Of a stretch of DNA of 48,366 bases, positions 6,613-39,011 are shown one piece after another. The notes below the pieces were generated by a model. The model did no database searches. It saw only the letters and a program-made list of their open reading frames with translations, and had not been told where the DNA came from. The translations under genes were made by a program, and so were the position numbers. Source of the DNA: a virus; the IMG/VR virus record IMGVR_UViG_3300042521_004506, positions 1-48,366 of that record. The stretch is one strand, 5' to 3'. How positions within the stretch are numbered: position 1 is the first letter of the stretch; each line of letters begins with the position of its first letter.

Positions 6613-7084
6613 CTTTTATCTTCTTTATTTCGTCTAGCAGACCATCAGACTTAATGGGACTGCCGTAGTTTTTTAACTCTTTTGTCCTAATCAAAACGGG
6701 AACATCAATTATAAAAGGGAAGAAATTTTGCATCAATGTATCAAAGGCATCTTGATAATTGATAAAAAGTTCCTCATCTTTTTGTAATCTATGTATAGCT
6801 TTAGCCTCTAATCCAAAACTTGGATTGATTACAAGAATGACGTTTGGGTTCTCTCTGTGATTCATAAACCGGCACAGTTCGTCCCTAACAAATCTGTTAA
6901 TTTTTCCTAAATTTTCATCCTTTTTCAGATGAAGAAAGTTGCCTATTTTTTCATCTTGTTTCACATGCCTTTTTACAAAAGCACCTAATCCATGAACATC
7001 ACTGCTTTTAAAGTAATAAGGATCTTGCTCTCTAGTCGAGATTAAGACGGGAAAAGATTGCTTCTTTGATCTTCTGAATAGCAT
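6584..7084 (-). CDS. SET-domain protein, putative lysine methyltransferase
   Basis: SET proteins transfer methyl from S-adenosylmethionine to protein lysines. The 166-aa product has the SET motifs in order: SSDVHGLGAF at residues 27-36 (the S-x-x-x-G-x-G-x-F entry), NHRENPN at 75-81 (cofactor-binding NHxxxPN), EAKAIHRLQKDEELFINY ending at 110 (the GEEL-x-x-x-Y element with the catalytic Tyr). There are no pre- or post-SET cysteines, so this is a minimal domain like the viral vSET type. The start at 7084 has GAAG seven bases upstream and overlaps the end of the sigma gene by 53 bases. Possible targets are host or phage DNA-binding or ribosomal proteins. Substrate is not deducible here. Confidence 0.8.
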   Translation of the reverse strand: MLFRRSKKQSFPVLISTREQDPYYFKSSDVHGLGAFVKRHVKQDEKIGNFLHLKKDENLGKINRFVRDELCRFMNHRENPNVILVINPSFGLEAKAIHRLQKDEELFINYQDAFDTLMQNFFPFIIDVPVLIRTKELKNYGSPIKSDGLLDEIKKIKDGYWRNIQI

Positions 7085-12449: not shown

Positions 12450-15400
12450 TTAAATAAATGGGAACTTTTCATTACTTGAAGAGCTGCTACTTTCTCCTTC
12501 TGAAGTGGAAGAAGAACTACCTCCTGTGCCTGGCCCTCCGGCCTCAATTACGCCACACACAAGAGTTGGGCCAGGGCCATCACAATCCCAGCACGTCCAG
12601 CGTCTGCGAAAATCTAAGCACAATGTAGGGTCTGAATCGGACCACCTTACACAATACTCGAAAACATCGCAGCATTGACCTCCGGTAAAACTACTAGGAG
12701 CAAGTTCAGAGACAGTCGCCCAGCCATTATCAATCATTTCTCTGTAAGAGAATATTGCAGGGATGTTAACAAAAACAGTATTGCCTACAGAGGTTTGATC
12801 CTCTATAATAGCATCAGCGATTGTTTGACGCTGACTGACTAATTCTTCATCAAATTCACTTACAGCCGCTGGAATCATTACACAGAAAGTAAAGTTTTCC
12901 TCATCAAAGCCAAGGCTAAGACATACTGCCGTAATTTGGTCTTTTATGTCCTGAATATCCTCTAAAAGAGTAGATTCAGAATTTGAATTTGCCTGTATGA
13001 AGAAAACCATTCTACCTGGACTACCAACAGTGACATCTAAAGAGTTGTAAGCAGAAACTGATCTTTGATTTATTACTTTTAAATATGTTTGAAGCGTAAA
13101 AATCACTTCAGCTTTGTTAAAATCTGACCGTATTGATTCAAGAGTTGCTCCTTCATAGGTATGGAATGGAGTAATAGCCAATCCTCCTATGCCTTTTCTA
13201 TGCAAACTGTGCAGTCCTACTGCAAAATCTCCGCTTATTCCTGATCGAGGCCCGTCTCTCATAGAGCCCAAGAATGAGAATTTAAGACCAGATACGCCAT
13301 GAACATTGTACGAGTAAAGGAACTCAACTTTGTCTACTACCCATTCTGAGGTAGAAAGTGAATCGCCAGCAAACGGGGAGCTAACAAATATATTTTCTCC
13401 ATCGTATGAAGATACAGAAAGAGTGTAAGAACCAGTGAAATTAGCAACTCTAATGACCATGTATTCCAATACAGAATTATCATCTAGCGGAATACCGATA
13501 GAAGGTTCAGTGTTTGCCGCATATATACCAGAAGAATATTCTACATAAAATTCTTCTACTATTTCTGGCGCAAATCCCCACTCAATTCCCTTTCCATATG
13601 GCTTAACAGAATTATGTAACGATTCATATATGCCTTCATCAGGGAAAACAGCACTACCTTTCTGGAGTATAGCTCCAGTTTCACTAAATCTACGAAAAAA
13701 TCCTGGCTCCCAGTCATTTGATAAAGTAGTTACATTTTGTGCAATATCGTATGAGTTTGATGTAGTAGCTGGCATAAATGGAGACCCATAAGATTTTGTT
13801 CCAAGAGAATTAAAGCCTCTATTTAATCCAGAAACCCAAAATCTTGAATCTTGACCTATATATATAATGTCTACTACATTTCTATCATTCTTAGCATCAG
13901 AAATAAATCTTCCAAATTTATTAGATCCATAAATTTTGAGTGGAGGACCGGATGGAATGGATGAACTAGATGATGAACTGCTAGAACTAGATGATGAACT
14001 GCTAGAACTAGATGATGAACTAGATGATGAACTAGATGATGAACTAGCAGACCAATCGAAATTTGGACACTTTATGCATCCATAGGTAAGTCCTTGAAAG
14101 AGACCCATGTCAGCTCCACTAATGTTTCCATCCCCATCTAAATCGGCTGCAATAGAAACAATGTTATTATAATCTACTGGTCCGAACATAATACCCAAGA
14201 AAAAGCCAAAATCATTACCATTAATAAATCCGTCGTTGTTTAAATCTGGACATCCTGGATTAGACCATATTCTAGTGCATCCTGAAGAAGATGAAGAAGA
14301 TGCACTTGAAGACGAAGACGAGCTGCTTGAGGACGATGAAGAGCTAGAAGATGTAACATTACAATTGAGAATATCACATCCTAAATCTACCCACCAATTT
14401 GTTATACTATCTGGGTCTAAATCCGAGCTACATACTCCAAATACTACTAATCTTAGTTTTTTGTACATAGGATCTACCGGATCAAATGCAACAGAAAATT
14501 GTCTTACTCTTATCGTTGTGATAACAGAAGAAGTAGCCCCAGTAGCAACACATCCACTATCAAACAATATTGACCTACTAGGTAGAGTAAATTGGCTGCC
14601 TTCGTATGCAAAGATGGGATGATCTGGATGAGAAAAACCAGATAATTGACCATTTTCATAGAGAAGTCTTCTTCCATAATGCTCATAGTCTAAATCACCA
14701 TTCTTAAGGACAGCATCTGTAGACAATTCGTCATCTCTTGTGGCTACTATCATTATCCTATCAGCAGCTTCTGAACCTGTCACATATTCAATACAAATAT
14801 CTATATATTCACCGCTGGAATCTGATTGGATATCAAATCCATTTAAATCTATAATGCTAGAATATGCCTGAGTCCCAGTTGTATTTAACCATTGTCCAAA
14901 TGACTGAACGCATGAGAAGCTAGAACTGCTTGAACTACTGCTTGAACTACTGCTACCGTTCCAATTAGGACATTCGACGCACGAACCCCAATATGATTGA
15001 AGAATACCAAGATCCAATCCGTCAACAACGCCATCTCCATTTAAGTCAGCAATCGGGTTATAATCTGCAGAAGCACTGAAATATACTGCAAGGTCTGAAC
15101 CACCAACAAACCCGTCACCATCCATGTCCGGGCAGCCAGGACCAGTCCAAACAACACACCCAGAACTTGAACTACTGCTGCTAGAACTAGATGATGAACT
15201 AGATGATGAACTTACAACACATGTAGGACTACGTATGCCAATTATAGCACCAGATAAACTACCTCCACCTGATTCCTCATTAAAAGATCCCCAATTAAAA
15301 TTATCTGTTTTATACTTGCCTCCAGGAATTTGACCATTTGTCCAAATTAACTTTGGCAAAAATGAGCTTGTAACCATACGCACTCCGCCAATAGCTAAAA

Positions 15401-18400
15401 GATAAGATCCCTGATTAAGAGTTGTAGATACGCTGGGGTCAAAATTCATATCAATTTGAAAATTCTTTGATGGATTCGGAGTAGTAAAAGTACTGCCCTG
15501 ATCATTCAGTATTAGAGAACTTGAAATCTTCAAATATCCAGTGGCGCTTGAATATATTTCCCAAGTACCTGTTGATTGCTGCAATTTGAATATGTTAATT
15601 CTGATAGAAGCTATGTTGCTGCTTAATTGATTTCCATCTGATCCGCCAGTACTCTCGTTGAAATATTCACTTCCGCCCCACATTCTAAACTTATATACTC
15701 TCCATTCGCAATTAACAGGAACTTGGAATTGTTGAGCAAATAATGTGCCATCGTTACCGTTACTTAAAAGATGAGCGGTATACTCGCCTTGAACTATCAT
15801 GCTTCCACTGCCATTGTCTACAGCTTTCATAGGCGGATTTATCCAAAGCACTACCTCATCTCCAGTAATTTGAGAACTACTGCTAGAAGATGAAGAAATA
15901 ACTGAAGATGAAGAGCTGCCTGCGCCGCACAGCAAAGAAGCGTTAAAGCACTCATTTGCTGGGCTCCCCACAAAAGTAAGATCTTGAGTGGCCATGTTAG
16001 CACATTTTCTACAAGCATCATTGCAGTCTCTAGCAACTATAGTTCTTTCTATAAGTACTACATTATCTGAAGAATCTTTACAATCTGCGTCTCCTCTTGC
16101 GCATTGACCATCCGAACAACAAGATGTAGGATTTGCACATAGAGCAATTGGATTGCCTAATTGCCATGAACTTACAAACTTAACAGTGTTACAATTTCCA
16201 CTTGAGCACCTGCATGCAAATTGACATACGAATGGATTATCTGCAACAACCACTTCATTCCCATCTAGGGGGCTGCCAGTAGTAGGATTGTTGGTTCCAA
16301 GTCCATCTGAAATTAACCCAATATTTGTAGAGCCATTCTCTATAGTAGAAGTTGCTGGATTTATTAAATCCTTATAAAGGCTAGTATTTATGCTAACACC
16401 TATTTCGCCAAATCCTATCGTGTTAGTATAGTTATTAGATGAACCCGTATGAACTAGCATGCCTCCTGCGAATATGCAATGGAATGGCTCAGTTGTAATA
16501 TTAATTGTAATTGATTTTTTGTTTATTACACTTGGATGTGACATCGGTGTCATTTCCAAATCTATGTTGTACCCATATACATTATCTTGCATGTATACTG
16601 CACTTCTAAACTTTAAAACTCCATCAACATCCATGATCAACACTGGGTGCTCAAAAGTAAGTTTCAAATAATCTGAAAACTTGTATATAGAAGATTCAGA
16701 ACCAATCCTAATCTTTTTAACTCTTGTTTCTGCAAATTTTATATATTGAGAATCACTTAATGTCCATCCGCTATTTATTTGCTCAAGAGTTGGATTTCTC
16801 TCTATACCAAATTCGTTAAAGTAAGCTGATAAGAGTATGTCTCCTTCTTTAATGTCTTCTATCCTTTTTTCACTACCATCTGCCATCTTAATCATGGTCC
16901 CCAATCCAAAGCATGTTGAAGTGCAGCAATTTGGACTTGGATCACATATCGGGCATGAGCAATCTACGGGATAATCAGGGAAAAAATCTTGGAATCTTTG
17001 TGAAAAATCCCAGTAAAATATAGAAGGCAAATCTGCGTCTCTTGTAAATTCTGCTCTCCAATAAAATTTACAAGAACCGCCGTCAACGCTACATATCACA
17101 AGTTGAGCTTGACCACTTGTAATAAGCCACTGCCAAAAATCCACCCAAGAAATGCAATCAATATCCCATATGCTAATTTCTATGTCACATTCTATAGAAA
17201 ATTGATTTTCTTGCGGGCAATCACAGCATGTAGCACAAGTTTTGAACCATTTTATTTTTAGTACTGCATCAGATGGGAATCCAACCTTGCTACAATTGAC
17301 TATTCCATTAGCCCAATCTTCTCTATCTAATATTATAGAGGGGATGTTATCGCAATCTGGACATGCACTACTTGAGCTAGAACTAGATGATGAACTAGAT
17401 GATGAACTAGATGATGAACTAGATGATGAACTAGATGATGAACTAGATGATGAACTAGATGATGAACTGCTTGAAGAAGATGTCAAACAAACACATGGAT
17501 CATTATTGTCACTTGAAGAACTTGAAGAACTTGAAGAAGAATTTCCATCTACACCTACACACACTAAATCATTAGGAGCCCAAGCAGCCCCGTGAGCAAC
17601 TCCTATATTTTGAACATTCAATCCAGTATCAATCCAACTATAAGTATTTGGGTCAATTTTAATAATTTTATTATTAGATTCACCAACAATTACATATAAA
17701 AATCCGTCTTTTGCATTTGTAATTGCCCAAACTTTATTTCCGTATGTAAATTCATCAGAAGTAGTAATTAACTCACCAATGCATTCTTGGTCAGCTGAAT
17801 CATATCTTGAAATATAAATTTGATCATTTACCTCTCCAGAGCCTATAATAAAAAAGTAATTTTCTAAAAGATCATTTGTCCATACGGCAGCATCACCACT
17901 GCAGCCAATTCCAAAATCGTCACAGGCTACAGAAGCAACTGCAGTCTGAGTGTCAATTGTAAATAATGGAAATTTCTCTAAGGCCTGAGGGCCTGGCGGG
18001 AAATATCCATCGGCGGCAAAACCGTACAAAACATTGTCTTTACTAAAAGATAAACCAGATAATATTGGTGCGTATTGCGGAGTGGAGAATGTTATATTGC
18101 CTACTATTGTAGCAATACCCGTATTAGGATCAACGCGATACAGCCTGTCGCTGTCGTTGATGTAAATTTCTCCTGTGTCGTTTACCGCTATATCCATAGG
18201 TATACTACCAGAGTAGCTTCCACCTACATCTATTTGAGATAAAATATTACCAGTTTTTACATCTATCTTTACAAGCTTTACGGGCTGTCCACTCGCTGTA
18301 GGCTCACATATTAACCATACTGGTATGACAGAACAATCTTCTGCTGTTAGCCTAAAAGCGTTATCGTCTTCAAAGTCTCCATCCCAATATGCAGCTCCTA

Positions 18401-20465
18401 CGCCACAACATAAGCCAGATTGTGAAAAATCACATATAGCCACCATTGAAGCATTGCCCGTGTCCCATCTATTAAAGGCATATATTTTTTGATCAGCAAT
18501 CGCTACAGGTTGAGGGGTAGAAGATCCCCGCTCTCTCGCCAAACCAAAAACTCTAGGAACAACAGAAAGTTTTACTGATGAAGTAACGCCGCTTGTTCCT
18601 ATTGCAACTTCTAATAATATATTAGAGTTACCATTTTTGGCAGACACCAGCAATCTGTTTGTGCCAGACTTAGCACTACATATATCTCCGTTCCCAGTGT
18701 AACCGATATTTCCTATTGACGTACTACCGCCATTTATAGTATTTAAAGAACATAAAGTCGAATTATTAACCGTGTATAATTTTCCATCTTTACCAAAACC
18801 AAGACCGCTCGTATTCCTTAGTCCAGAGTCTCCGACAATATCTGCATGTCCATTTATTTTATTTATCAAATATAAAATGCCAGAAGTTCCAAGACCATAA
18901 AGATTTCCTTCATCGTCAAAATCAATATCATGTATTTGATCATCTAAAGTGTTACCTTCATCATTTTTTATTCTTAATATTCTTCCAGACAGGTTGCCAG
19001 TAATAAGATCTATTTTACCAATTTTATTCTGATCATCAAGTACAAATACGCCAAAATTAAAGTTTTCAGAACTAGAGCTAGAAGAAGCAACGCCGCCACA
19101 AATAGAAAGATCGCTGTTGCAGTTGTTGCATGCTAAACAGTTTAACTCAAGTTCCCAAGAAGTATTTTCACCCGTACTTTGACAGCCAGAAAAAATAACT
19201 ATTCTAATTTTGTTATCCCATTCAGAACCTGTACCTGTAGAAAAAAGTGCTTTATCTATTAAGATACAGGCAAAATCAGAATTAGCATCATTTCCACCCT
19301 CTCTGAACGGAGGCTTATTTGTATTATTGTTTGTGGTGCAACATGGAGCGTTCATACATCCTGATCTCAAAATTGGACTTACAGGACGATCATAAACATT
19401 TCCGCTTTCTGGATCCCATGTTTTTAATATTTCATCAGAAGAAGCGTATTCAATAAAATTTGAAGAACTTAAATAGCCTTGACCTTGAGAACTACTGTGA
19501 ACATATGGTTGGTCAGACGAAGGAGTGACTACAGCTGCGCCCCACAAAGGTTTTCTCAAAAATTCTGTTTGCTGAGCATTTGAGCCCAGTGTAGGCATGA
19601 TGACAAATCTTGAGCCGTTCCCCATGCTCCTCCATCTTATGCATATATAACCATAAGAATCAGTGCCGCTTTCTATACAGGAGCCCACGACCTCTGACAT
19701 GTCTAGTATTATTTCAACTGGCTTGCCGTTAGAGTCTGGAGCTGTTGTTGAACTAATTGTTTTAGTAAAAGAACATCCTGTGCCAAATGCAATGTCGGCA
19801 AATGGATAAGTAAATACAAGTTTATTATTTATAAATTTTAATTTATTTAGAACTGAAATAGCACTGTTAACCCATTTAACTTGATCCTTTAAATATTCAT
19901 TAAGAGTTGCGTAAGGGCTTGATGGATTATCGAAAGATGGAGGATTATTAAATCGATCAATATCATCACTTGTCAAATAATCTCCATCAACAATTTCATC
20001 AAAATACTCAAAATAATCGTCTCCAATTGTAGTTGCTTCAGAACTTGGGTCACCTATTTTATGAAAAAATCCACCTGCCCTCAATACGTAAACTTCGTCA
20101 TCTGGATTTTGATACTGTATAATTGATGGTCTATATGCAACTTTTTCATACAAACCAGATGGATGCCCAGCAAACATTTGCTTAACAGCATTTACAATCA
20201 GCAGAGAAGTATCATATATTCCCTGAGGCGTATCAAAGGAAAGTCCTAGCAAACTTATTTGACTGTAATCTTCGCCGTCTATTTTAGCAGGATTATTAGA
20301 AATATAACCTATCCTGATTGCCTCTTGACGTATCCTTGTCTGATTAACAAGAAATTGCATTAAAACGTCTATGCCAGTTAATCCAATTCCAGAAGAATCT
20401 AGTATAATATTTTCTTTTAAAAAATTAGACGCATACTGTGTAGTTTCAAATGGGTTTCTAATCAT
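12450..20465 (-). CDS. Giant modular adhesin/tail-fibre-like protein with Hint, dockerin-like and poly-Ser modules (2671 aa)
   Basis: Domain order by eye: an orphan N-terminal region; a Cys-rich module ending near residue 450; a beta-propeller-like stretch at about 468-969 with repeats such as GKIDLITGN, LYRVDPNTG and DDEGNLYGLG; long poly-Ser linkers near 974-1035; a Cys-rich segment; a Hint domain at about 1185-1342; more Cys-rich and beta modules; two dockerin-like EF-hand pairs near 1770-1834 and 2062-2139; and a C-terminal domain at about 2180-2580 with weak SGNH-hydrolase resemblance, then a Ser-rich tail. The start has AAGAGG seven bases upstream and overlaps the 3947-aa gene as TAATG. 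No signal peptide is seen, as expected for a virion protein. Surface adhesion or fibre function is inferred. Confidence 0.85.
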   Translation of the reverse strand: MIRNPFETTQYASNFLKENIILDSSGIGLTGIDVLMQFLVNQTRIRQEAIRIGYISNNPAKIDGEDYSQISLLGLSFDTPQGIYDTSLLIVNAVKQMFAGHPSGLYEKVAYRPSIIQYQNPDDEVYVLRAGGFFHKIGDPSSEATTIGDDYFEYFDEIVDGDYLTSDDIDRFNNPPSFDNPSSPYATLNEYLKDQVKWVNSAISVLNKLKFINNKLVFTYPFADIAFGTGCSFTKTISSTTAPDSNGKPVEIILDMSEVVGSCIESGTDSYGYICIRWRSMGNGSRFVIMPTLGSNAQQTEFLRKPLWGAAVVTPSSDQPYVHSSSQGQGYLSSSNFIEYASSDEILKTWDPESGNVYDRPVSPILRSGCMNAPCCTTNNNTNKPPFREGGNDANSDFACILIDKALFSTGTGSEWDNKIRIVIFSGCQSTGENTSWELELNCLACNNCNSDLSICGGVASSSSSSENFNFGVFVLDDQNKIGKIDLITGNLSGRILRIKNDEGNTLDDQIHDIDFDDEGNLYGLGTSGILYLINKINGHADIVGDSGLRNTSGLGFGKDGKLYTVNNSTLCSLNTINGGSTSIGNIGYTGNGDICSAKSGTNRLLVSAKNGNSNILLEVAIGTSGVTSSVKLSVVPRVFGLARERGSSTPQPVAIADQKIYAFNRWDTGNASMVAICDFSQSGLCCGVGAAYWDGDFEDDNAFRLTAEDCSVIPVWLICEPTASGQPVKLVKIDVKTGNILSQIDVGGSYSGSIPMDIAVNDTGEIYINDSDRLYRVDPNTGIATIVGNITFSTPQYAPILSGLSFSKDNVLYGFAADGYFPPGPQALEKFPLFTIDTQTAVASVACDDFGIGCSGDAAVWTNDLLENYFFIIGSGEVNDQIYISRYDSADQECIGELITTSDEFTYGNKVWAITNAKDGFLYVIVGESNNKIIKIDPNTYSWIDTGLNVQNIGVAHGAAWAPNDLVCVGVDGNSSSSSSSSSSDNNDPCVCLTSSSSSSSSSSSSSSSSSSSSSSSSSSSSSSSSSSSSSSACPDCDNIPSIILDREDWANGIVNCSKVGFPSDAVLKIKWFKTCATCCDCPQENQFSIECDIEISIWDIDCISWVDFWQWLITSGQAQLVICSVDGGSCKFYWRAEFTRDADLPSIFYWDFSQRFQDFFPDYPVDCSCPICDPSPNCCTSTCFGLGTMIKMADGSEKRIEDIKEGDILLSAYFNEFGIERNPTLEQINSGWTLSDSQYIKFAETRVKKIRIGSESSIYKFSDYLKLTFEHPVLIMDVDGVLKFRSAVYMQDNVYGYNIDLEMTPMSHPSVINKKSITINITTEPFHCIFAGGMLVHTGSSNNYTNTIGFGEIGVSINTSLYKDLINPATSTIENGSTNIGLISDGLGTNNPTTGSPLDGNEVVVADNPFVCQFACRCSSGNCNTVKFVSSWQLGNPIALCANPTSCCSDGQCARGDADCKDSSDNVVLIERTIVARDCNDACRKCANMATQDLTFVGSPANECFNASLLCGAGSSSSSVISSSSSSSSQITGDEVVLWINPPMKAVDNGSGSMIVQGEYTAHLLSNGNDGTLFAQQFQVPVNCEWRVYKFRMWGGSEYFNESTGGSDGNQLSSNIASIRINIFKLQQSTGTWEIYSSATGYLKISSSLILNDQGSTFTTPNPSKNFQIDMNFDPSVSTTLNQGSYLLAIGGVRMVTSSFLPKLIWTNGQIPGGKYKTDNFNWGSFNEESGGGSLSGAIIGIRSPTCVVSSSSSSSSSSSSSSSSSGCVVWTGPGCPDMDGDGFVGGSDLAVYFSASADYNPIADLNGDGVVDGLDLGILQSYWGSCVECPNWNGSSSSSSSSSSSSFSCVQSFGQWLNTTGTQAYSSIIDLNGFDIQSDSSGEYIDICIEYVTGSEAADRIMIVATRDDELSTDAVLKNGDLDYEHYGRRLLYENGQLSGFSHPDHPIFAYEGSQFTLPSRSILFDSGCVATGATSSVITTIRVRQFSVAFDPVDPMYKKLRLVVFGVCSSDLDPDSITNWWVDLGCDILNCNVTSSSSSSSSSSSSSSSSASSSSSSGCTRIWSNPGCPDLNNDGFINGNDFGFFLGIMFGPVDYNNIVSIAADLDGDGNISGADMGLFQGLTYGCIKCPNFDWSASSSSSSSSSSSSSSSSSSSSSSSSSSSSSIPSGPPLKIYGSNKFGRFISDAKNDRNVVDIIYIGQDSRFWVSGLNRGFNSLGTKSYGSPFMPATTSNSYDIAQNVTTLSNDWEPGFFRRFSETGAILQKGSAVFPDEGIYESLHNSVKPYGKGIEWGFAPEIVEEFYVEYSSGIYAANTEPSIGIPLDDNSVLEYMVIRVANFTGSYTLSVSSYDGENIFVSSPFAGDSLSTSEWVVDKVEFLYSYNVHGVSGLKFSFLGSMRDGPRSGISGDFAVGLHSLHRKGIGGLAITPFHTYEGATLESIRSDFNKAEVIFTLQTYLKVINQRSVSAYNSLDVTVGSPGRMVFFIQANSNSESTLLEDIQDIKDQITAVCLSLGFDEENFTFCVMIPAAVSEFDEELVSQRQTIADAIIEDQTSVGNTVFVNIPAIFSYREMIDNGWATVSELAPSSFTGGQCCDVFEYCVRWSDSDPTLCLDFRRRWTCWDCDGPGPTLVCGVIEAGGPGTGGSSSSTSEGESSSSSSNEKFPFI
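13964..14041 (-). repeat. 12-bp repeat array encoding a poly-Ser linker
   Basis: Five copies of AACTAGATGATG (plus-strand view) occur. The first two are separated by a 9-base variant unit and the last three are tandem. On the coding strand each copy encodes four serines. The linker separates the second dockerin-like pair from the C-terminal domain. Copy-number change by slippage would keep the frame. Confidence 0.85.
14050..14283 (-). other. Second dockerin-like EF-hand pair (within the 2671-aa protein)
   Basis: The encoded segment has two calcium-loop motifs, DLNNDGFINGNDF and DLDGDGNISGADM, bracketed by GCPD at the start and CIKCP at the end. Duplicated D-x-D/N-x-D-G loops about 30-40 residues apart are the pattern of type I dockerin or related EF-hand repeats. 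Poly-Ser tracts flank it on both sides. Confidence 0.7.
14965..15157 (-). other. First dockerin-like EF-hand pair (within the 2671-aa protein)
   Basis: Encodes DMDGDGFVGGSDL and DLNGDGVVDGLDL, two canonical calcium loops, with flanking GCPD and SCVECP cysteine motifs like those of the second pair. Serine tracts lie on both sides. The two pairs are clearly related copies. Confidence 0.72.
16440..16913 (-). other. Hint (hedgehog/intein) autoprocessing domain (within the 2671-aa protein)
   Basis: The segment starts CFGLGTMIKMADGS with Cys1 at about residue 1185, continues with IEDIKEGDILLS (block A end), has LTFEHPVLI (block B T-x-x-H), and ends with PFHCIFAGGMLVHT (blocks F/G). Cys1 and the block B Thr and His needed for the N-S acyl shift are present. 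The terminal Asn of inteins is replaced: His is followed by Thr-Gly. This predicts cleavage or thioester attack at the N-terminal side but no splicing. Confidence 0.75.
17381..17464 (-). repeat. Seven perfect 12-bp tandem repeats encoding poly-Ser
   Basis: AACTAGATGATG is repeated seven times without a mismatch. Read on the coding strand it gives TCATCATCTAGT units, four serines each, forming the longest Ser linker of the 2671-aa protein. Perfect identity implies recent expansion or ongoing slippage. The plus-strand reading (Asp-Asp-Glu-Leu repeats) is a shadow. Confidence 0.9.
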
Positions 20466-23400
20466 TATGCGCCTCTTATGATATGGTAAAATCCATTAAA
20501 TGTATTCATAAACTTTCTCATAAATTCTTCTTTGACATTATCCATTTGATCTGATGAATCTGTATCGACTATATGTATGCATCCTGCAGGATCCATGAAC
20601 TTTTGTCCTTCAATTACGTCATATAAACTGTTTTTAATCTTTGTCATTAATTCAGATATGTTTGCAGAACCAGTTTTATTTAGCGCATAGTTAATAAAGT
20701 TTGAACTAATTTTTCCACACAATACTAAATCTTTGACTGATGAATTTTCACTAGAAGAAGTATTTATTTTATTCCTAATAGGTGCCGGAGAAGTATCCCC
20801 AATTCCTACAGTTATTATATCTAATAAATTCTTATCATTTCCTCCTGAAGACCCATTCATTTTCCACTTAGACACTTTGCGACTAGCGTTCCGCATTTCA
20901 CCTGAACAAACACAAGCTCCCATTGATGGCTTGTAATCAGGCACGTCTGCATTAGAAATAGTCGTCAGAACAGGAGCAAAATACCATTCTGCCTCTGGAT
21001 GTGATGCAGACACTGAATCTTCATATATGTAAGACAGCTTAATCAAAAGCATTCTATCACCATTATATATGCATCCATGGTTTGGATCAAAGCACCCAGC
21101 GAAATCCTTGATCAAATAATTCCATTTTGTATTATATAATCCATACACTGATTTTCTAGCAAAAACTATATTACCTTCACATCTTGGTATACTAATATTA
21201 GGCATAGAAAAACCACCCTGATTAATTTGCAATGCAGATTTACTATAAAGTAAACTCATAGAATCATCTATAAACATGTCTAATGCGTAATCTCTATATG
21301 GATTTGAAAATTTAGATGCAGAATAATTGTAGAATGGAATTACATTATTAAAACCAAATCCTGAATCTCTGTATATTTGTTCATTCATATGATCAGTAAA
21401 GTCATTTAAAACAACTACACAACGTTGTAATCCAAGTTTTTCTCTAGATCTTAATAACGGTATTATAGATGTAAAATTTTGATGCATTAAATCAAAAGTG
21501 CCATAATTTGTTACTGCAGAAACAGTAATGACTTTTGGTCCTGTCAATCCGCACCCACTAGTTCCAATATAATCGTTGTCTCCACAAGCCGGATTTGCCA
21601 CTAATTGGTTACTATTATTTGGCATGGAGAATTTTACCATAGCATTTTTGTTAACACTTTGAATACCCAAAGATAAACTCTTATAATAAGTCTTGTTTGC
21701 TGCATAATTTTCCAACAATATATCAGAAGTAGATGGAGAATAGTGCTGATCATATTTGTATGATCTCATCACATATATGTCATTAGTTCCCCACCACAAG
21801 ATGCCGGAAACGTCATTCCAGTCCATCTGCATCAGAGTGCCTTTTATCTGATCTATTTGATTGTGATAATCACGGTAAACATTATTCCCGTCTAGTGGCA
21901 AGAATTCATTGCCTCCAAAATAAAACTGCTTCTTTTCTATATCTGGAACAGGTGGCTTTACTAAAATATGAGCTTCGTTATCTGAAGTATATTCGTATCC
22001 AGAATATTGCAACTCTCCGTCTCCAAGACTGCTTGACAAATCATATGCATAAATCCAAGACTTTATACTTGGGTTATATATTTGAGTTTCTGGATTTGGC
22101 TGACCAGATGTGTAGCCAAATCTTTTTGCACTTAGAGCAGAATATGCTGGATAACAAATACTACTACTCATATCTTCATTTACGTCAAATACGCCAACTT
22201 GAGATACATCAGCATTCCCAACAACCAACGATGTATAGTTAGATATAGAAAATATTTTTCTATATGGATTGTTGTCAATTGAAAGTTCAATAAATGCTAT
22301 CTTGGATGCTAATTTATTAAATCCAGGAGAAGCAGAAGCGTTTACTGTTGGTACTGATACCGTAGACATGACTGAGATATCAGAATTATCTGCATAAGTT
22401 ATATTGTTAGTATTATTTGTATTTCCAACATACCCGTATTGGGAATAAGGAGTTAAAACTCTTTTGACTGACACATTAGGAACTGGAGATCCTCCAACAA
22501 TACTATCAAGATTCCAACCAGAGCCTTGAGAATTAGATGGACTCATCTTCATAAGGTGACCCAAAGAAGAAGCAACAAGTGTATTGTTGTAGAACATTAA
22601 ACCACAACTACCGTTCTTTGCGCTTACTGGCGTCATAGTCCAGAAATTCAAATTAGCAAATGATTTATTATTTTCACTAAAAGTAGGATCTGTGGGAGGT
22701 ACGATATCGCTTAGCTCTATTGTTCTTTTTACAGCTCCATTGCCGGAAGGAATTGAAGCAGTGAAAACAGTCACTCTGCCTAAACGTCTTTCAAAATTTG
22801 AAGCATTATAATTAGCGGTATTTGAATCTAAATAATCTAAATAGTCAGTATCTGGATCTATGCCAGAACACACATATATATCATATAAAGAATTGTTAGA
22901 GCCATTAGCTACACCCCAAATAGCAGAACAAAATACGTCAACTGGCGCACCATTACTTGTAGAAGAAGGAGACAGACCTTGCTCTAGCAATTTAGTATAT
23001 GAGACACTAGATCCTGTTACTTGCTTTTTATACAAATCTATGTAGAACAAAGCTGGAAGAGGTTCGCCGTTTGGACTTACCTCATCTGCCTGAGCATCCC
23101 ATCTATGATTACCTATCGCTATAATACTTGCATCGTTGCTCATCCAAACTTGATACTTAAATGACTGGTTGCACAGGTCGTTTATTCCTGTAACTGCCAT
23201 ATCATTTATTTTTGACTCATAGACCATGCCCGGACCAGTAAAGAAGTCAGCGTCCTGTTGTCCATTTGATTTAAACTTAAATACATAAGTAAATGCGCCA
23301 CTACTATCATTTCCACTATTTCCAGTAATAACAAATCTATCATTACCATTAAAGAACCCGTTCAATCTGTGTAAAGAGTAAGCAGACTCTAGTTGTGTAG

Positions 23401-26400
23401 CTATGCTATCAGGATTACCATCTGCATCTTGATAAGTAGCGATTATTGGAATTTGTGTTATTTTAGGCTTTTTTGAAGTTGCAGAAGCAGAGGGCTCAAT
23501 TTTGTAAAAAGCATTTCTCCAGAAAACAAACGCATGGATCTTACTGCCCTCAGAAACATTAAAGCCTACTCCTTCTCCAAGTATAGCAACTGAATTATTT
23601 ACAGCACCAACACCGACTGGGATACGGAATCCTTCAGTTTCGCTGTTGTAGTCAAACCATTGCTCGTTAGGCGGAAATTGAGATCCTCCACCGCCGTTAA
23701 GGGTGCCGTAAGCTGCAAATTCTGAGACTAAATTCGCACCAAAATCTTGCGTGTAAGAATCATTTCTAAAAAATGATTGAACCATGCGCTGCGCTTCACC
23801 ACTATACGCAGAGAATGCAAATAGAGCATTAGCTGAGTTAATCGTACTCATGTCAGTAAATGATAATCCAAATTTTTGGAAAACTATAGGTCGTGAGTCC
23901 CAAACGTATTGAGGCATTTTAAAACATGAAGATTTATTTTGGTTTGCCCACCAAAGAGGTCCCTTATCTAATTCATCGTTTTCTATTCTATACACGCATG
24001 GACCTATGACGGCAAAATACTTTTCACTACCAGAGCCTGAATTGTACTTAAGCATTATATGCTTGCCAAGCTTGATCATATAAGATCTATTGATTGGGAC
24101 TTTTATCATGCCTGGAGATGTATGGAAGTAGTTTGTGGAGCTTGTTGCCTGATCTCCTGGATTAACTCCTAAATACTTTATGTCGCTAGAAGCACTCCAT
24201 GGAAAATTTCCTGGCCAATAGTGTGGAGAGTTATCTTTGGAAATTTTTCTAGTTCCAAGAAGTGGCTGCAGCCATATGCCCATTCTACACCAAGAAGTCT
24301 CTGGCAAAACTTGAGGGCCAGTACCTACCGTGCTTCTCTTAATAGAACCAGATAAAGTAGCTTCGGAATTGGCAAAAGTTGATTTAACCGAACTTACTTC
24401 GCCATTTATATCAAGTTTTGCAGTTATTACTGCACATATTAATCCACCGCCAAATATATTCTGCGTGGAAATATTATTCTTCCATCCAAAACTATGTTTT
24501 GATGGACTGTTAGCACTCCAAGTATTGCCGTTTAAAGAGGCAAGTATCGTAACTGTAAGAATTCTTTGACCCTGACTGGTGGAAATAACAGAAGAGTTTA
24601 CGTCGATAACGTGAGCTAGTCCATTTTTAATTGCTTTCCAAAAAGCAGATTGTTTTCCTGCGTCTACGTTATATCCTAAATTGTTTTTATCATTAGTAGT
24701 TAAATTGCCTGTGAATCCAACAGCTCCAACATTTCCAGAGTCTGGATAATCGCCAGATGGCATATCGCTAAAAGTATTGACGAGACCAAAAATATGTGTA
24801 AAACTATTGACGGTTACAGCGAAATCTAGCAAATCAGGCATTCCAAAAGTTGGTAGACAAACAAGCGTTTCAGGGTTATTGAAAAAGTCTTTTGGGCTTA
24901 CTCTATCAAACAAAGAAAATCTTCGATATTGTTTGCTAATTTGATCACCATTAACAGTGTTAGTAGCAATATCAGTTTGATATTCTTCTCTAATGTGTGA
25001 TTTAGAAAGATTAGAATTGTCCTCTGGACTCAATCTGTTGCTAATATTAAGTGAGACTATATTTGTAGCATCATTAGACCAAGTGTCCCCATTAGTGTTT
25101 TGATTATTTACATAACTTCCTAAATTAGATGCACTAGCATTCACACTTCCAACAGTATCAATAGAATGTACTGGAGAGAATTCTGCTCCACTTTCATTTA
25201 CTGTTCCAGAAGAATTCTGTCTATGATAAGAAAGCTTTCTATATATAAATTCATTTTGATAAACAATTTCATCTCTACTTATACTTCTTAATTCAGCTCC
25301 AAGAACAGATACTTGCACATTTCGCCCACGACCTGTGAGCATATTAGTCTTGTAGGGATACTTAAATGAAGAGTGTTTTCCAAGCTTTGGATATACAGGA
25401 TTAGTAGCAAAATAGTTTCCGACTAAACCATTCAGAGTGGCAGGGAATTTGTCTAGCAAAGTTTGTGCGTTAGTGTTGTTGTACCTATAACGCGACCAGA
25501 AACTTATTGAATTTCCATTGGAGGCATTGTATAAGTATGGCAAGTTGTAAGAACCCTGTAACGTGTAGTATGTTGGAGCATATTCCCCAATGGTCCCGTT
25601 TGATTCTGGACCGCTTACTCCGTTGGGTGTAAAAACAGAAGCAAAATGCGAATACCACTGTAGCAAAGAAGGACCGCCGCCATTGTAAAGCGCTCCAACG
25701 GTAGCCAATGAAGTATTTGTTGAAGTACCGGTATTATCCCAATAGCTAAAGCCAGCAGCAGATGGTCTGAAGTGATCAATAGAAGTTATTGATGGATATA
25801 ATATGGTTTTATATTTATAAGAAAAGTTATTTATATAACTAGAACTTGAGCTACTGCACCAGCTGCTACCTAAGCCACTAGAGCCAATAAAACTACTTAA
25901 ATGAACTCCACTTTCATTCGTATTTGATCCGACAACTAAACCGATTCCGTCAGTAAATGTTTTGCAAGACACTATATTAATGTAACTTGTGTTATATTCA
26001 ACCCTTAATGCATTACTGCATGTGCTTGAACTTAAATTCTGAGAAGCACTAAAGTATGCACTTCTACTATCATCATATGCAGTAGCGCTATCATTTTGAG
26101 GATCTCTCGCACCGGTAAAAAAAACAGCCTCTCCAATATGGAGCACTTGAGGACAGACCGTACATGATAAATGAGTAAGCTGATTTCTGTTTAAAGGATA
26201 CGCTCTTATAGGGAAGAGATTAAAATCAGACTGAGCTAAACCACGCTCTGTCTTTTTAGGCAACAGCATATTGTCATAAACGTCAGTAAAATTGCCTTCA
26301 AAATTACTACTGAAAATGGCTGCTCTTATTTGAGATGGACTTGGAGTATTACTGTCGGGATCATAGTCCCAAAAAAGATCAACCATATACATGGTGTCTG

Positions 26401-29400
26401 TTGGAGCTACTCTAGCGTTAAATGAATTTGGATAAGAATTAGTTACCCAAGACGGATTATTTGTAAAGCTGTTGGCAAAATGGGATGGATTCTTTGCAAC
26501 TTTTCCCCAAGCAGAATAAGGATTACCACTCGTGTTCCAGTCCGCTAAACCACCAAAATTATTTTTCCAAGATTTGTATGAAGATAACCTTTGATCTAAA
26601 ATGCAAGTAAATTTAATTGATGGAGCAAAATAAGATGGGCCATTGTTGTTGCCATTAATAGAATAAATTTTTGAACCATAGCCTGAAACAAAAGTTACTA
26701 TCTGAGATCTTCTGTCTGCTATTGTGGAAATTTGATTGGTGTCTCCAGTATTGTTTGATTTTTGGAATCCATGATAGTTATAGTGGCCATGTATGATTAT
26801 ATCTTTAACACCAACATTCATAAGTGTGTTATTCCAGCCAACTGCATTTAAATACAATGCATGAGTAGAACCATTAGGAGCAAGCTTAATCGCATCAATA
26901 GTGCTAGCACCCCCTAGAGTTTGATTATACGGTCTGGTATTACCTGTAGAACATCTAAAATTAATTGGTGGATAACTTAATATATGACCAAGATTAAAGT
27001 CATAAGATTCATATGATGGCATATACCCTGTATACACAGAAGAATATTCAGTACTATTAGTATTTCTGTCTTCTGCAACAGTACAACCACTCCAGGTTAA
27101 ATATTTTGAAGTTTGATGCAATCTATGACCAGTTACAGATGTTGAAGTATTATAAGCATTTATAAATACGTTATATGAACCATCAGCTAGCTTTAATCCC
27201 CAAAAATATCCCTTATCAATTTTGCAAGCATCTACTCCAGTTTTGTCAGATGACAAAGCGCCAGGTTTTATAGACAATTTTCCAAGATAAAAATTTTCAG
27301 TACCACTAAAACTTGTTATGCTTGCTCCCCAGTTAGTATTTGCAGAAGAAGTACCCTGCGGCAGATTAAAATTCGGCCACACAACCATGTGGCCCTCTGT
27401 TGAGGAGTCCACTAACTGGACACATCCTGGAGATATGTAATTTCTTGTAGACCACCAGAAGCCAGAGTTAATAGTTCCATTGTATGGTTTAATAAGCGGG
27501 TTTCCAGTAACGTCTGTATGCGGAGAAGTTGAAGATCTAATAAAAGGAGAAGAATTAAAATAATATCCACCAGATATATTATATTCAACACTGGCAGATG
27601 TTGGATTCCATACTGCAATACCATCTATAAATATAGAATAATTGTCATTGCTAATCTTCGATATAGGAACTATCCATCTATTAGCTCTAACAGGCGCTAT
27701 GGCAAAAGAATTTGTATTATCAATGCTACCCCTCCATCTGTCAGACTGCGGACTTATAATAGGAGCGTACAAGTAGACATTATCATTCAGTTCATTAAAA
27801 GTTGGAGTAGCGAAATCGAAATAATCAGATCTAATTTGCTGAGGTAAGTTAGCAGCTGCACTGTCTTCTTGATCAGGAGAACTCATGGATGCATCAACTG
27901 TTCTATATGGTCTTGGATGCATTTCCATAACTCTTATGTTAAGATTTTCTTTATCATATAATGAAAGATTTGCGATACTTATGTCAGAAACATTTGAAGC
28001 AGTATTTGACAAAGTAAATGCACCTATATCGCTATATGTAGAAGCAAAATCTTCCGCCTCAGCGAAAACAGGGTCTTTAATAAACTTTCCTAATTTGAAA
28101 GATGGTATAGAATTTTCATTAATAGAAGTCTTTATGGCAGATTTTTCAAGCAATCTTGCTGGATAATATTTCCAAACATATCTTGAATTTGCAACACTTG
28201 AAGAAATATCATGTGCAACATGCTTTAATCCAAGAGCGGAAGACTTTATAAAATATTCAGCTGAAACATTATCATCTTGATTAACAAGCACACTAGGTAT
28301 TCTAGACGGAAGAATTCCAAGAGCCTTACTGCCAGATACCACTACAGACTTTACTATTCCTGCGCCGTATCTATAATCAGTATTGCCTACAACAGCGTTT
28401 TGAGAGAAGCCATTTAATGCCTTCGCTGATGTCATGTTTCCAGGAGCTGATATAAAGGCTATAAAATCGTTTTGGTCATTAGATGGAGAACTTGACAGAA
28501 CTTCTATCTTATGTCCAAATCTGTCCCCCTTGTGTGCGTCATAATAGCAGCCAGTAAAAGACCAGGTGCCACTTTTATTTTTATCCAACATGAATACGTT
28601 GCCATAAGACCCACTCTGAGCAGATGGACCTATGACAAGATCGTCATCACAAGCACTTATTAAAATTTTATTACTAATTAATTTTACAAACTTACCAAAC
28701 TTCTTTTTCTGCCACTGCAAAGAATAAGCGCCACCGCCAAGCTGATAGACTTGCTGCGGAACATTGAACTGAGACAAGGAGTTTAAGTTAATTATACTTT
28801 GAGATGCATCAAAAACATCTCTTTCGCCAAGAGCAGAAGGCTGATTAAATTCAAATACTCTTACTGAGCCTCCTTCTTGTATATTACTGGACTCGCCAAC
28901 AGCACTATATCCAGTATCATATGGAGAAGAAATGACTATATGCTTATAATCTGCATCAATGTCATAACCAAAATAAGGCTTAGTAGATACGTTTGGATTA
29001 AAATTACTTCCTTCAATAATCTTATACAATGGACCATTTACGTCTGATTCGAAAGAAGTGAGTGCTCCATTTAAGTAAAAGAGCATTACCGCTCCGTTTC
29101 CTTGCTGTATTAGGGCATTATCTGGTGGCTTGATTTCTAATGAATCTTCTTCCACAGAATCAATAAAAGATATTATTGATGAAGAAAGATATGCAGAATT
29201 AAATGTTGGATAACCAACAGCTACGGTAACGCCTCCAACGGTAGGTTCGTAAACACAAGATAATCCAAAACGTGCACCAAAAGATAAATTGTTAAAACTA
29301 CTTAATTTTACATAAGAACCAGAACACTGATTTATTAAAGTAATATTATTAGATGTATTAATAAATTGTGCATAACCTGTTTTATTATTGTTTGTAAAAC

Positions 29401-32308: not shown

Positions 32309-35300
32309 AATAAACGTCTATCTTCATTATATAAGAATCTTATCGAAAATTTTTGCAATAAATTAGGCTGTGTTTGCCCAGTTGGAATTACAAATTTTAT
32401 TCCAAATATCATTCTATCCTGCCAAAAATCTGTGGCAGATGGCTTCCAGTCTTTAAATACGAATCCTATGCTTGCTACGACTTTTTCTGTAGCAGAGCTC
32501 ATGCCAAATTCATCAACTAAAGGAAATCTAGTTTTTGGCTGCACAAGCATAAATCTACTAAGACTATTTATTCCTCGTGCTATTTCACCACTATTAATAG
32601 TGTAATCTAAATAATTTTGTGGATTTGTGTATAAAATTGTCTTATTTATCCTATCTATACCAGGGACAAAGCTGCAGTCAAACTCCCAAGGTCTTTCTTG
32701 GTTCACGGCAGTTGGGGTGCTTAGCTTGCCAATTGTGTCAATATCTGGAGTAAATATATCTCTTACTTGAGTTTCAGCAGTGTCAGCTTTTATAAGAAGT
32801 AAAGCGTTGCCGTTATCTAGCATGGGTATTTTATTAATGTTAAGCATAAAATAGCTTACAATTTCAATCTTCTGCAGACCATCTTCCTCAATATTCCTTG
32901 CCACTGAATCGCAATTGATATACTCTATAAAATTCACTTCTATTGAATCCTGTATAACAAAAGCGGATGGTGGCTGAAGGGGAGATCCAAGATTCCAGAA
33001 AAAATCACAGAAATTGTAATCAAAAACACATCCAACGTTATTAAATATCCTTATGTTGCAAGTGCCAGAAGATTCGGTGATATTAGCCTGAAAGTATACG
33101 GGGATATCTACATAGCATCCGTCTTGACTTGCTCCACCAGCCGCCCTACGTCTATTAACCAAATACGTTTTTACTGCTGGGTCTATTCTGAGGACCCACA
33201 CTTGCTGATATCCAGGAACAGGGATAAGAGTAATGCTATTTCTTATTGGCTCTGGTATCATCGATTTGTCAAACCCGGTAATGTCATTATCAACATCACT
33301 AATAATTGGGTTGCCTATACCAGCAACAAATCTATCATCTGTGTCTATGACTGTGCGAGAATAACCCCTTCCATTAAAGGTAAATTCTCCAGCATCAGAA
33401 GTTTCCAAAATACCCTCAGGAGCTATAAGGATGTCCCAAAAACCATAATTATCTAAAACCAAACCAAAAGTCTTGCCATCTTTGGATACTTTCATATCAT
33501 AATTTGGATTATTTTTATTTATTGCCAAAAATCCAAAGTTGTTTATCTCTGATGGAGCATCTATAATTTTTACAGAAGTTGAAAGACCAGTGCTAGACAT
33601 ATTTATGCTAACGTAACTTACTGTTGATTTAAGTGGGATTTTTAACATCACTGGAAATACTAAATAACTCTCTGAATCTCCCTCAGAATTTATAAATTCA
33701 ACATTTTCTACAGTATCTCCAGGAGCGAATTCTCCAACTACATATGCTGGATCAACTGGAGAATTGTAGTTAACAGTAGCAGTTATCATAGATGCAAAAT
33801 CATTAGAAGCAGAATTATTAGGACCGTATCTTCCATCACTATATGCAACTCTTACAATCACTAACGCAAAGTCTGCGTCAACAGTTCTAAACTGAACATC
33901 TCCAATACCAGTTTGCTGATAATTTGCAAAATATGTATTTGGAGCCGGATTTGTTCTAATTATCCCATTTGCTATATATCCACCGTAGGAAACCTCAAGC
34001 GCAATCATGTTTGAAGGAAGCATCATTAATTTTTGAGTATAGTTATTTTTACTATAATTGTCTTGATTGTCTTGAGAAATCAATTCACTTGATTCTATAA
34101 ACCTATTTTCATCATCAAAAGAACTAGATAATACTGGCGATGAAATATTCTCCATATCCGAAACGCCTATTACATTTCTTGGTCTTCCACCAAATACTTG
34201 TTCATTTTTTGCAGAACTATAATTGGTAGACTTAGAAACAAAAGACACGTTCAAGACATCTGGCTGATCATGCTGTGAGTCATACGTGTCATAATATATA
34301 CCAATAGTTTCATTACTTGACTCTGAAACTCTCACTCTTTCAAATGTGACTGCATTAATTTCAGATTGTAAAATAGACGGATTAACTTTAGGCAATCTAG
34401 AAAGAGATTCTGCAACAAATCTTTTACTCTCTGTAGGATATTCGTATGGGCTTGTATATGCGTCCGAATATTGTTGAGTATAAGGATCAAAAGAATAATT
34501 TCCAACAAGCGATTCAGTAGCGGAGGCCTCTGATGTACCAATAACATTGACATTAGACTCAAACAAACTTGAATATGGGTTTTCTTCCAAAGATTCTATA
34601 TATGGATTTGGTTCTATATTTTCAGAAACAATATCTAGCTGACTGGATTCAATAAATGGATATACTTTCTTGAATATGTAATTTGCTTCTACTATTTTTG
34701 CAGGTTCTTTTTCAACAAGCCTACGAGTAGAATATGCTTTTGGATTTTGAACTAGGGATTTAGCTACAATCCCGAATTCCAGTAATCTGCTATTTACGTC
34801 ATCGACTAAATCATCTATTGAATTATATTTTGGGTTATTTAAATAAAACTTATAAGACCTAGGATACTTATTGTTTTGTATCATGTCTATTTGCAAATTG
34901 AATCCAGACTGCATCCTTGGAATAACCGTATTTTTGTACACCATCAATAAACCCGTTTTTGCTACTTCCTGAGGAGGTGTGTAAGGGTTGACATATGGCT
35001 CGTAGTAATATGGCTCGTGGTAATATGGCTCGTGGTAATATGGCTCGTAGTAATATGGACTATTAGAGCTATAGGGATTTGACCACATTTCAAAAGTGCC
35101 AATATTTTCAGAATACAAACCACTATTCAGTTCCATACCTTGAACAGGACTATATGGATTTGAAGCATACGGATAATAATAAGGCTCTTCAGAAATTATC
35201 TCTACTACTGGTCTTTTTCCGCCAATATTAGTTATTGCAGTATTAAATACGAAATCCTCATAAGGCATAACATCAGTTGCCCTGATAACTGGCTTTGCCT

Positions 35301-38115: not shown

Positions 38116-39011
38116 TAGTCAACAAACTCTATTAAAAAATATGTTTTTGGATCATCTAAATTATACTTCATAGAACCTGCATCCCATTTAACATTGATTA
38201 TATTTGCAGATTTACCTACTACAGTTCCTACCGATTTGCTTTTCATTAAATTTGTTGGCTTCGCGACCACCTTAGAGCCAACATGAACTATTTTATTGCC
38301 GCCAGACATATAGCGAAGCAACTCATGCAAACCATCCTTGCTGACATCTACAGAAATAAGTGATTTTGCAATCTTAATAGGATCTTTAGAAAGTAAGTCA
38401 AAATTTTCTTTTACATTTGACGCATATTTTTTAAGAGCTGACATTATATTTTTGTCATGATAAACCAAATTACTACCCTGACTTGCAAAAGTAAATTTAT
38501 GATATCTCCATTTTTCTTCATCTCTCATAGTGAGAATTTCAATATTAAAATTTTTACTTTTAGTGAATCTTGTCATTTCTTCCAGAGGATGATCGTTCAT
38601 TACCACTATTCCTTCACATCTAGCTCTAAAATTTGGGATACCGTTTGGTATTAAACAAACAGTTCCAAAATCTTTTTGTTGCAAGTCTTTGCGATTTATT
38701 TTGCACAAAACCATGTCCGTATTGGAAAGCATAGAGATTTTTGAAAGAGTAGATCCAAATACGGTTTGACCATAAAATTTTTGGTCTAAGGCTAATGATA
38801 TTGACACATCCAATATACTCAATGGCACATAAGCATATTCACCCATAGGATCTCCATTTGCTAGCAAGTCTGGCAAACGGGCGATTCTATTATCCCTAAC
38901 ATTATTATTATCAATGAACAGACTTACTGCCTCTATTATTGAGGCAGCATCGTCTGGTGATACAAAAATATCTCGCTTTAAATTAAAAGCATTTATTATA
39001 TCTTCTATCAT
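38115..39011 (-). CDS. Hypothetical protein with possible C-terminal SH3/KOW-like domain (298 aa)
   Basis: Not recognised. The N-terminal part is helical (PDDAASIIEAVSLFI). The last 60 residues (GSKVVAKPTNLMKSK, VGTVVGKSANIINVKWD) read as five short strands with a V-G-x-V-V-G turn, like a KOW or SH3-type barrel. It sits immediately upstream of the giant genes and overlaps the first by one base; its start overlaps the 65-aa gene by four. It is probably a virion or assembly protein expressed with them. Confidence 0.7.
   Translation of the reverse strand: MIEDIINAFNLKRDIFVSPDDAASIIEAVSLFIDNNNVRDNRIARLPDLLANGDPMGEYAYVPLSILDVSISLALDQKFYGQTVFGSTLSKISMLSNTDMVLCKINRKDLQQKDFGTVCLIPNGIPNFRARCEGIVVMNDHPLEEMTRFTKSKNFNIEILTMRDEEKWRYHKFTFASQGSNLVYHDKNIMSALKKYASNVKENFDLLSKDPIKIAKSLISVDVSKDGLHELLRYMSGGNKIVHVGSKVVAKPTNLMKSKSVGTVVGKSANIINVKWDAGSMKYNLDDPKTYFLIEFVD

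Follow-up and report, generated by a model that had tools for sequence, protein, structure and literature searches.

Paired dockerins and a diverged Hint domain in a giant phage protein that may be a tail adhesin

The window analysed here is one whole virus record of IMG/VR (IMGVR_UViG_3300042521_004506; 48,366 bases, 35% guanine plus cytosine, without a completeness estimate) and probably represents only part of a larger genome. On its minus strand, at 12450–20465, a single open frame encodes a protein of 2671 residues, P0001, while the plus strand there is full of stops. As an initial annotation made from the sequence had described, the protein carries poly-Ser linkers, Cys-rich stretches and two EF-hand pairs, here called D1 and D2, which lie at practically the coordinates given there (residues 1769–1837 and 2062–2140). 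From the N terminus, a region without an assigned family (residues 1–460) is followed by a propeller-like region, poly-Ser, a Cys-rich module, a Hint domain and a second Cys-rich module. A further region without family (1532–1751) leads through poly-Ser to D1; another poly-Ser linker, residues 1850–2038 (again without family) and more poly-Ser then lead to D2, and a last poly-Ser linker joins D2 to a C-terminal region without family. That the virus is a phage, as the same annotation had assumed, is supported by PHROG matches to a clamp loader, a DNA polymerase processivity factor, a Holliday junction resolvase and two sigma factors.

Dockerins are calcium-folded clip-on domains, best known from cellulosomes, and their calcium ligands stand at loop positions 1, 3, 5 and 12. 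Both EF-hand pairs of P0001 are dockerins with complete ligand sets, as all four loops have Asp or Asn at positions 1, 3 and 5 and Asp at position 12. The Pfam family Dockerin_1 (PF00404, cut-off 22.9 bits) matches the whole protein with 36.1 bits (E 7.3e-9) and D1 alone with 30.0 bits. D2 is assigned through its likeness to D1 (41% identity, E 1e-17). Four Cys residues are common to the two modules, two on either side of the EF-hand pair.

Structure prediction, which the initial annotation had proposed as the way to tell dockerins from other EF-hands, was run on D1 and gives a dockerin fold and no non-dockerin EF-hand fold. The model was built with a 19-row alignment (predicted local distance difference test, pLDDT, 79.3; helices 21–30 and 48–56). 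In Foldseek, its top 18 rows are cohesin–dockerin or cellulosome entries, the best being 2y3n_B (TMq 0.71), and calmodulin-type rows stand lower (TMq 0.20–0.27). The closest solved dockerins by fold are 2y3n_B, from a type II cohesin–dockerin entry of Bacteroides cellulosolvens, and 2ozn_B (C. perfringens NagJ/NagH). The alignment took 17 of the 22 EF-hand pairs found in 80 of 120 loci from a dockerin-motif scan of IMG/VR viral contigs, which gave at least 120 stretches; L018 was also scanned and had no match. L046 (an unreadable residue), L072, the second pair of L092, L103 (a copy of L101) and L118 were dropped, and the other 40 loci, read later, are absent from it. Like type I dockerins (PF00404), the P0001 modules have a helix after each of two D-x-[DN]-x-D-G...D loops, score over the cut-off and match in fold; unlike them, they are internal, lie between poly-Ser stretches with two shared Cys per side, have no enzyme attached and stand in a record without a cohesin match.

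The Hint domain is diverged. Hint catalytic motifs comprise a first Cys, T-x-x-H and a terminal His-Asn; P0001 keeps the Cys (Cys1185) and the T-x-x-H within LTFEH. The Hint call of the initial annotation stands on these residues and on homology to phage proteins, whereas the Pfam Hint models remain under their cut-offs (Hom_end_hint 20.0 of 32.1 bits, Hint 13.6 of 29.7). Residues 1180–1340 match phrog_38766, labelled virion structural protein (E 3.3e-6), and a tblastn search with the domain gives matches in 26 phage records (E up to 0.1; the best is 1e-4). Erwinia phages account for 19 of these records, and identity is about 27–31% among the matches listed; one Dickeya phage match is annotated as a putative tail protein. 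The domain is thus related to virion structural proteins. In the Erwinia phage pEa_SNUABM_2, the homologue is annotated as a virion structural protein, adjoins another one and lies two genes from a tail-fibre gene. This Alexandravirus protein (gp110, phrog_38766) shares the Cys, the T-x-x-H and the terminal His with P0001 at about 31% identity; its Hint domain is C-terminal in 480 residues and ends in His-Asn, whereas that of P0001 is internal in 2671 residues and ends in His-Thr. Because of this ending, Asn cyclisation is not expected and splicing is unlikely; N-terminal cleavage is, judging by the motifs, at most possible.

The remaining parts of P0001 are less readily assigned (Table 1). 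Eleven runs of at least 5 Ser occur, the longest of 38, written in mixed Ser codons and in 12-base tandem units; because part of the Ser coding consists of this repeated unit, linker lengths probably vary by slippage. In the propeller-like region, DUF4394 (28.4 of 29.6 bits), DUF6923 (26 of 27) and Kelch_6 (21.6 of 25.3) all stay below threshold. Residues 2170–2658, where Pfam gives nothing over cut-off, may resemble a degenerate SGNH hydrolase (serine-esterase-like) with GQDS and no D-x-x-H motif. A weak candidate internal repeat places part of the 225–460 region in 1850–2038 (z 4.0, reached by 2 of 200 shuffles), as one short aligned stretch.

Table 1. Features of P0001 and of the overlapping genes around it (positions in the window)
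Feature	Position	Strand	Remarks
P0001, 2671-residue giant protein	12450..20465	-	closes the run of four overlapping genes; probable tail adhesin/fibre subunit
Propeller-like repeat region, residues 467-975	17541..19067	-	DUF4394, DUF6923, DUF5074, Kelch_6, all just under cut-offs
Longest poly-Ser linker, residues 996-1033 (38 Ser)	17367..17480	-	12-base unit x 7.4
Cys-rich module, residues 1034-1180	16926..17366	-	15 Cys
Diverged Hint domain, residues ~1185-1340	16446..16913	-	Cys1185, TFEH 1270-1273, His-Thr end instead of His-Asn
Cys-rich module, residues 1360-1516	15918..16388	-	14 Cys
Poly-Ser linker before D1, residues 1752-1768 (17 Ser)	15162..15212	-	
Dockerin D1, residues 1769-1837	14955..15161	-	Dockerin_1 30.0 bits; Cys 1770, 1778, 1829, 1832 in common with D2
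Dockerin D2, residues 2062-2140	14046..14282	-	41% identical to D1; same four Cys
Poly-Ser linker after D2, residues 2141-2169 (29 Ser)	13959..14045	-	
C-terminal region, residues 2170-2658	12492..13958	-	no Pfam match over cut-off
P0002, 3947-residue protein	20465..32308	-	Ser-rich linker present; directly upstream of P0001, 1-base overlap
P0003, 1936-residue protein	32305..38115	-	4-base overlap with P0002; residues 1-511 77% identical to protein on IMGVR 3300011113_000744
298-residue protein	38115..39011	-	opens the overlapping run; shares 1 base with P0003; without Pfam or PHROG family

P0001 ends a run of four overlapping genes on the minus strand (298, 1936, 3947 and 2671 residues; 12450–39011) that fills more than half of the window and shows hardly any recognisable family; neither P0002 nor P0003 has a Pfam family over cut-off. 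The overlaps along the run are 1, 4 and 1 bases, and the ATG of P0001 shares one base with the upstream stop (TAATG). Such an arrangement points to translational coupling and to a single assembly, most plausibly of tail fibres or adhesins, and suggests that the run is a tail-fibre/adhesin operon. Within P0003, a tandem 15-base repeat at 34993–35058 encodes a stretch of the YYEPYYHEP type.

P0003 and the clamp loader each match one IMG/VR contig, 3300011113_000744, which ends within P0003 and has no GC-type dockerin at E 0.01. No match is found for P0002 in IMG/VR, nor for P0003 or for D1 alone in 50,697 phage records. Among the window proteins run against Pfam and PHROGs, a set that excludes several small open reading frames (ORFs), no portal, terminase or major capsid protein is identified. 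The protein at 10781–11998, labelled HNH endonuclease in PHROGs, has a single match in the phage records, at 27.5% identity in a 595-kb uncultured phage; by eye it looks like a VWA-type partner of the upstream ATPase. The record is probably part of a large phage. Other minus-strand genes of the window encode a secreted-looking (by eye) metallopeptidase at 4425–5378 (Peptidase_M43, 34.4 bits against a cut-off of 23), a SET-domain protein at 6584–7084 (PF00856, 30.6 bits against 22.4), a PP-loop protein at 2025–2837, TilS-like by eye, and a small protein with a poly-Asp tail at 42280–42633. The frame of the PP-loop protein overlaps that at 962–2134, a PHROG "dehydrogenase" that by eye resembles inosine monophosphate dehydrogenase and GMP reductase.

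The initial annotation had also called the architecture cellulosome-like and had noted that Ser linkers are common in plant-polymer-degrading bacteria. No cohesin match occurs, even at E 1, in the window or its related contig, and no glycoside hydrolase, other enzyme or carbohydrate-binding Pfam family is found in P0001–P0003 or in ten pieces of P0001. As for the linkers, nothing tested makes them point to such hosts, and in the 120 viral loci no ORF with the motif has more than 5 Ser in a row, the longest run being 5. The observation therefore largely holds, with "dockerin" right and "cellulosome-like" not supported; the docking that it proposed would be a testable hypothesis.

Dockerins recur in other phages. 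By a simple pattern, 34 EF-hand pairs are found in 32 of the 120 viral loci, and Dockerin_1 scores over its cut-off in eight of ten viral ORFs tested (L060, L062, L065, L080, L101, L104, L109 and L113). Each of these eight has one EF-hand pair; seven are of 239–422 residues and L104 is of 1469. No Hint family is among the matches of the ten ORFs, and Hint and long poly-Ser together with dockerins are seen only in P0001 among the loci examined. Neighbouring genes were tested at six loci (20 ORFs). The L101 dockerin gene lies among head–tail adaptor, major head, head assembly and tail genes, and at L104 a tape-measure gene immediately precedes the gene of the protein with the terminal dockerin. 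On the L080 contig, tail and baseplate proteins are matched weakly at a distance of about 6 kb, and a single-strand DNA binding protein is matched strongly. Neighbouring genes encode a primase and a repetitive protein that matches tail fibres at L060, an SbcC-like protein at L065 and a ribonucleotide reductase at L062. The ten viral dockerin proteins themselves have no PHROG match, so that a place in the virion is read from their neighbours. BFVD further contains an entry named "Dockerin type 1 [Myoviridae sp. ctagO6]". Like P0001, these are viral dockerins, some of them among structural genes; the scan, the eight Dockerin_1 ORFs and the BFVD entry together show that phage dockerins recur and are already annotated.

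Several of these viral proteins have features of their own. L101 (7188–7925, minus strand), L103 and L109 combine a signal-peptide-like start (by eye), a domain of no assigned family and a C-terminal dockerin. We do not claim a cohesin-like N-terminal domain in L101 and L109, where hhalign gives a probability of 1.5% (P 0.033, 43 columns) against a cohesin profile of 10 of the 11 cohesin loci (L036 left out); the dockerin and cohesin profiles show no resemblance, as expected, and no cohesin is found in the 13 records tried. L080 (11973–12824, minus strand), L107 and L081 encode secreted-looking proteins, again with a signal-peptide-like start by eye, that carry a dockerin pair. At L060 (2225–3490) and L062 (1832–2923), a GDSGSP region, trypsin-like by eye, is joined to a dockerin, and, among the 40 loci read later, large ORFs of 744–1668 residues with dockerin-type EF-hand pairs occur at L125, L133, L135, L140 and L163. 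The motif CPD[LIVMF][DN]GDG occurs at 12 loci in viral contigs, with L005 and L011 in plausible calcium-bead proteins; most of the 12 were judged chance matches in short or implausible frames.

We also compared D1 and D2 with bacterial genomes sampled from two phyla (names inferred), those of a Phycisphaerae and of a Saprospirales genome. With the threshold loosened from 1e-6 (0 of 199 genomes) to 0.01, and with some matches crossing a stop codon, the D1/D2 profile matches 26 of 199 genomes in the former phylum and 10 of 198 in the latter, with best scores of 31.0 and 31.5 bits. Since both phyla match with equal best scores, we name no host, and a planctomycete origin of the modules is not accepted. 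The best-matching genome of the Phycisphaerae phylum, G020, has two cohesin matches, and cohesins occur in 19 of 101 genomes of the class of the Phycisphaerae genome, to which nothing ties the phage. Another dockerin family, the GC-type NF041540, is present in 12 of the 199 genomes, with many copies in some, and has 24 matches at E 0.01 (8 over cut-off) in the Phycisphaerae genome G001, which has no cohesin match. D1 resembles this type in a loop–helix pair followed by W-G-x-C, and P0001 matches it weakly at D1 (17.7 bits, below the cut-off of 29); 9 of 11 motif matches read in G001 begin at most 51 residues from the C terminus, whereas the phage modules are internal. A bacterial scan with the D1/D2 alignment gave 81 stretches, none confirmed. 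Of the six loci from a pattern scan, five encode calcium-bead-like proteins (four archaeal, one from Saprospirales) and one, from Phycisphaerae, a dockerin-type motif.

Among the literature matches listed, no title or opening of an abstract reports dockerins as phage attachment modules or as recurrent among phage head and tail genes, and the search found no paper on GC-type dockerins. In the nearest report, part of a structural protein of an E. coli phage is described as similar in structure to a "dockerin carbohydrate binding module" (PMC5967307). Gene 40 of VvAW1 has blastp similarity to a dockerin type I cellulosome protein (PMC3558961), and dockerin counts are given for Hydrogenedentes genomes (PMC9377139). 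None of the three, as far as their excerpts go, describes the architecture of P0001.

We propose, at a probability of about 0.5, that a large tailed phage uses P0001 as a tail adhesin (fibre) subunit, with the dockerins as calcium-stiffened docking modules. The protein would be a beads-on-a-string chain, its globular domains and two dockerins strung on poly-Ser linkers, made from the run of four overlapping genes. This reading draws on the virion structural proteins among the Hint relatives, the homologue near a tail-fibre gene, the overlapping giant genes and the dockerins in structural neighbourhoods of other phages. A place on the tail as such is probable. The chances are roughly balanced that the dockerins fold on calcium and serve as protein–protein docking modules rather than as mere spacers. 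A docking partner outside the virion, on the host surface, can be put forward tentatively; one in another virion protein is unlikely, the external partner being somewhat the likelier. That the Hint domain cuts the chain on the N-terminal side of Cys1185, so that the dockerin part becomes a piece of its own, is a doubtful proposition.

Several points weigh against this proposal. None of the four overlapping proteins has a tail family in Pfam, PHROGs or further profile searches, and the PHROGs category of phrog_38766 is head and packaging, not tail. P0001 has no relatives in IMG/VR (three pattern sets: the whole protein, residues 1–460 and residues 2170–2658) or in the 50,697 phage records. No cohesin (PF00963) is found in six frames of the window or in contig 3300011113_000744 even at E 1, both of which may be fragments. 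D2 alone scores 19.9 bits against Dockerin_1, under the cut-off. The fold match of D1 is moderate, with no Foldseek row at E 0.001 (best 0.011). In VIA, the model matches three dockerins at Z 8.3, 6.8 and 5.7 (2y3n_B: Z 8.3, root-mean-square deviation 2.5, 60 aligned residues). A best Z in the range of 7 to 8 is usual in VIA even where nothing clearly matches, and a Z of about 8 may mean a common arrangement only. A model from the alignment of D1 and D2 alone is poor (pLDDT 50), and the richer alignment was picked by the dockerin motif, so that fold and sequence do not count as independent evidence.

The modest single scores, of D2 and in Foldseek, would also fit a chance EF-hand-like match in a low-complexity protein; the likeness of D1 to D2, the whole-protein E-value and a fold that fits dockerins and not calmodulins make this very improbable. 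If the modules are dockerins, they could still be borrowed calcium-stabilised beads without a partner, comparable to EF-hand or thrombospondin-type beads in adhesins. Their internal position between poly-Ser stretches fits such spacers or stiffeners, as does their divergence to 41% identity with calcium ligands and Cys retained. Set against this, sequence outside the ligands is partly kept between D1 and D2 (31 of 69 identical in all), although duplicated beads would look alike too, and we consider a role as mere beads somewhat improbable.

Two further explanations specify the partner. In one, the dockerins bind cohesins of a non-cellulosomal surface scaffold of the host, mimicking host dockerin proteins and thereby recruiting the virion. 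Cohesin/dockerin complexes without a link to cellulose have been proposed for freshwater Planctomycetes ("planctosome", PMC6461901), and a cellulosome-like complex with peptidases has been inferred for Cloacimonadota (PMC8542988). The cohesins of the Phycisphaerae class, the profile matches in that phylum and the two cohesin matches of G020 agree with it; the equally good matches in the Saprospirales phylum, the sub-threshold GC-type score, the dockerin-rich G001 without a cohesin match and the missing tie to any host speak against it, and we regard this explanation as unlikely. The other holds that tail-fibre subunits are kept together as the dockerins bind, with calcium, to a partner within another virion protein that has escaped recognition. 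Two further giant proteins from the same run, of 1936 and 3947 residues and neither with a Pfam family over cut-off, could provide one, whereas a six-frame search of the window at E 1 shows no cohesin; this explanation, too, is unlikely. The tail-adhesin reading is the one that we carry forward.

A broader scenario, which we consider quite improbable at present, is that phages of bacteria with non-cellulosomal cohesin–dockerin scaffolds have repeatedly, in apparently unrelated lineages, gained virion dockerins to clip onto host cohesins. P0001 would then be an extreme form, with two dockerins on Ser arms and a Hint domain that may cut the adhesin in two. If phage dockerins do bind host cohesins, a bacterial protein pairing of very high affinity would serve as a phage receptor system, and the cohesin scaffolds of uncultured freshwater bacteria would be testable entry points and predictors of hosts. 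That dockerins turn up repeatedly among the head and tail genes of phages is a pattern in its own right, even if they are no more than calcium beads.

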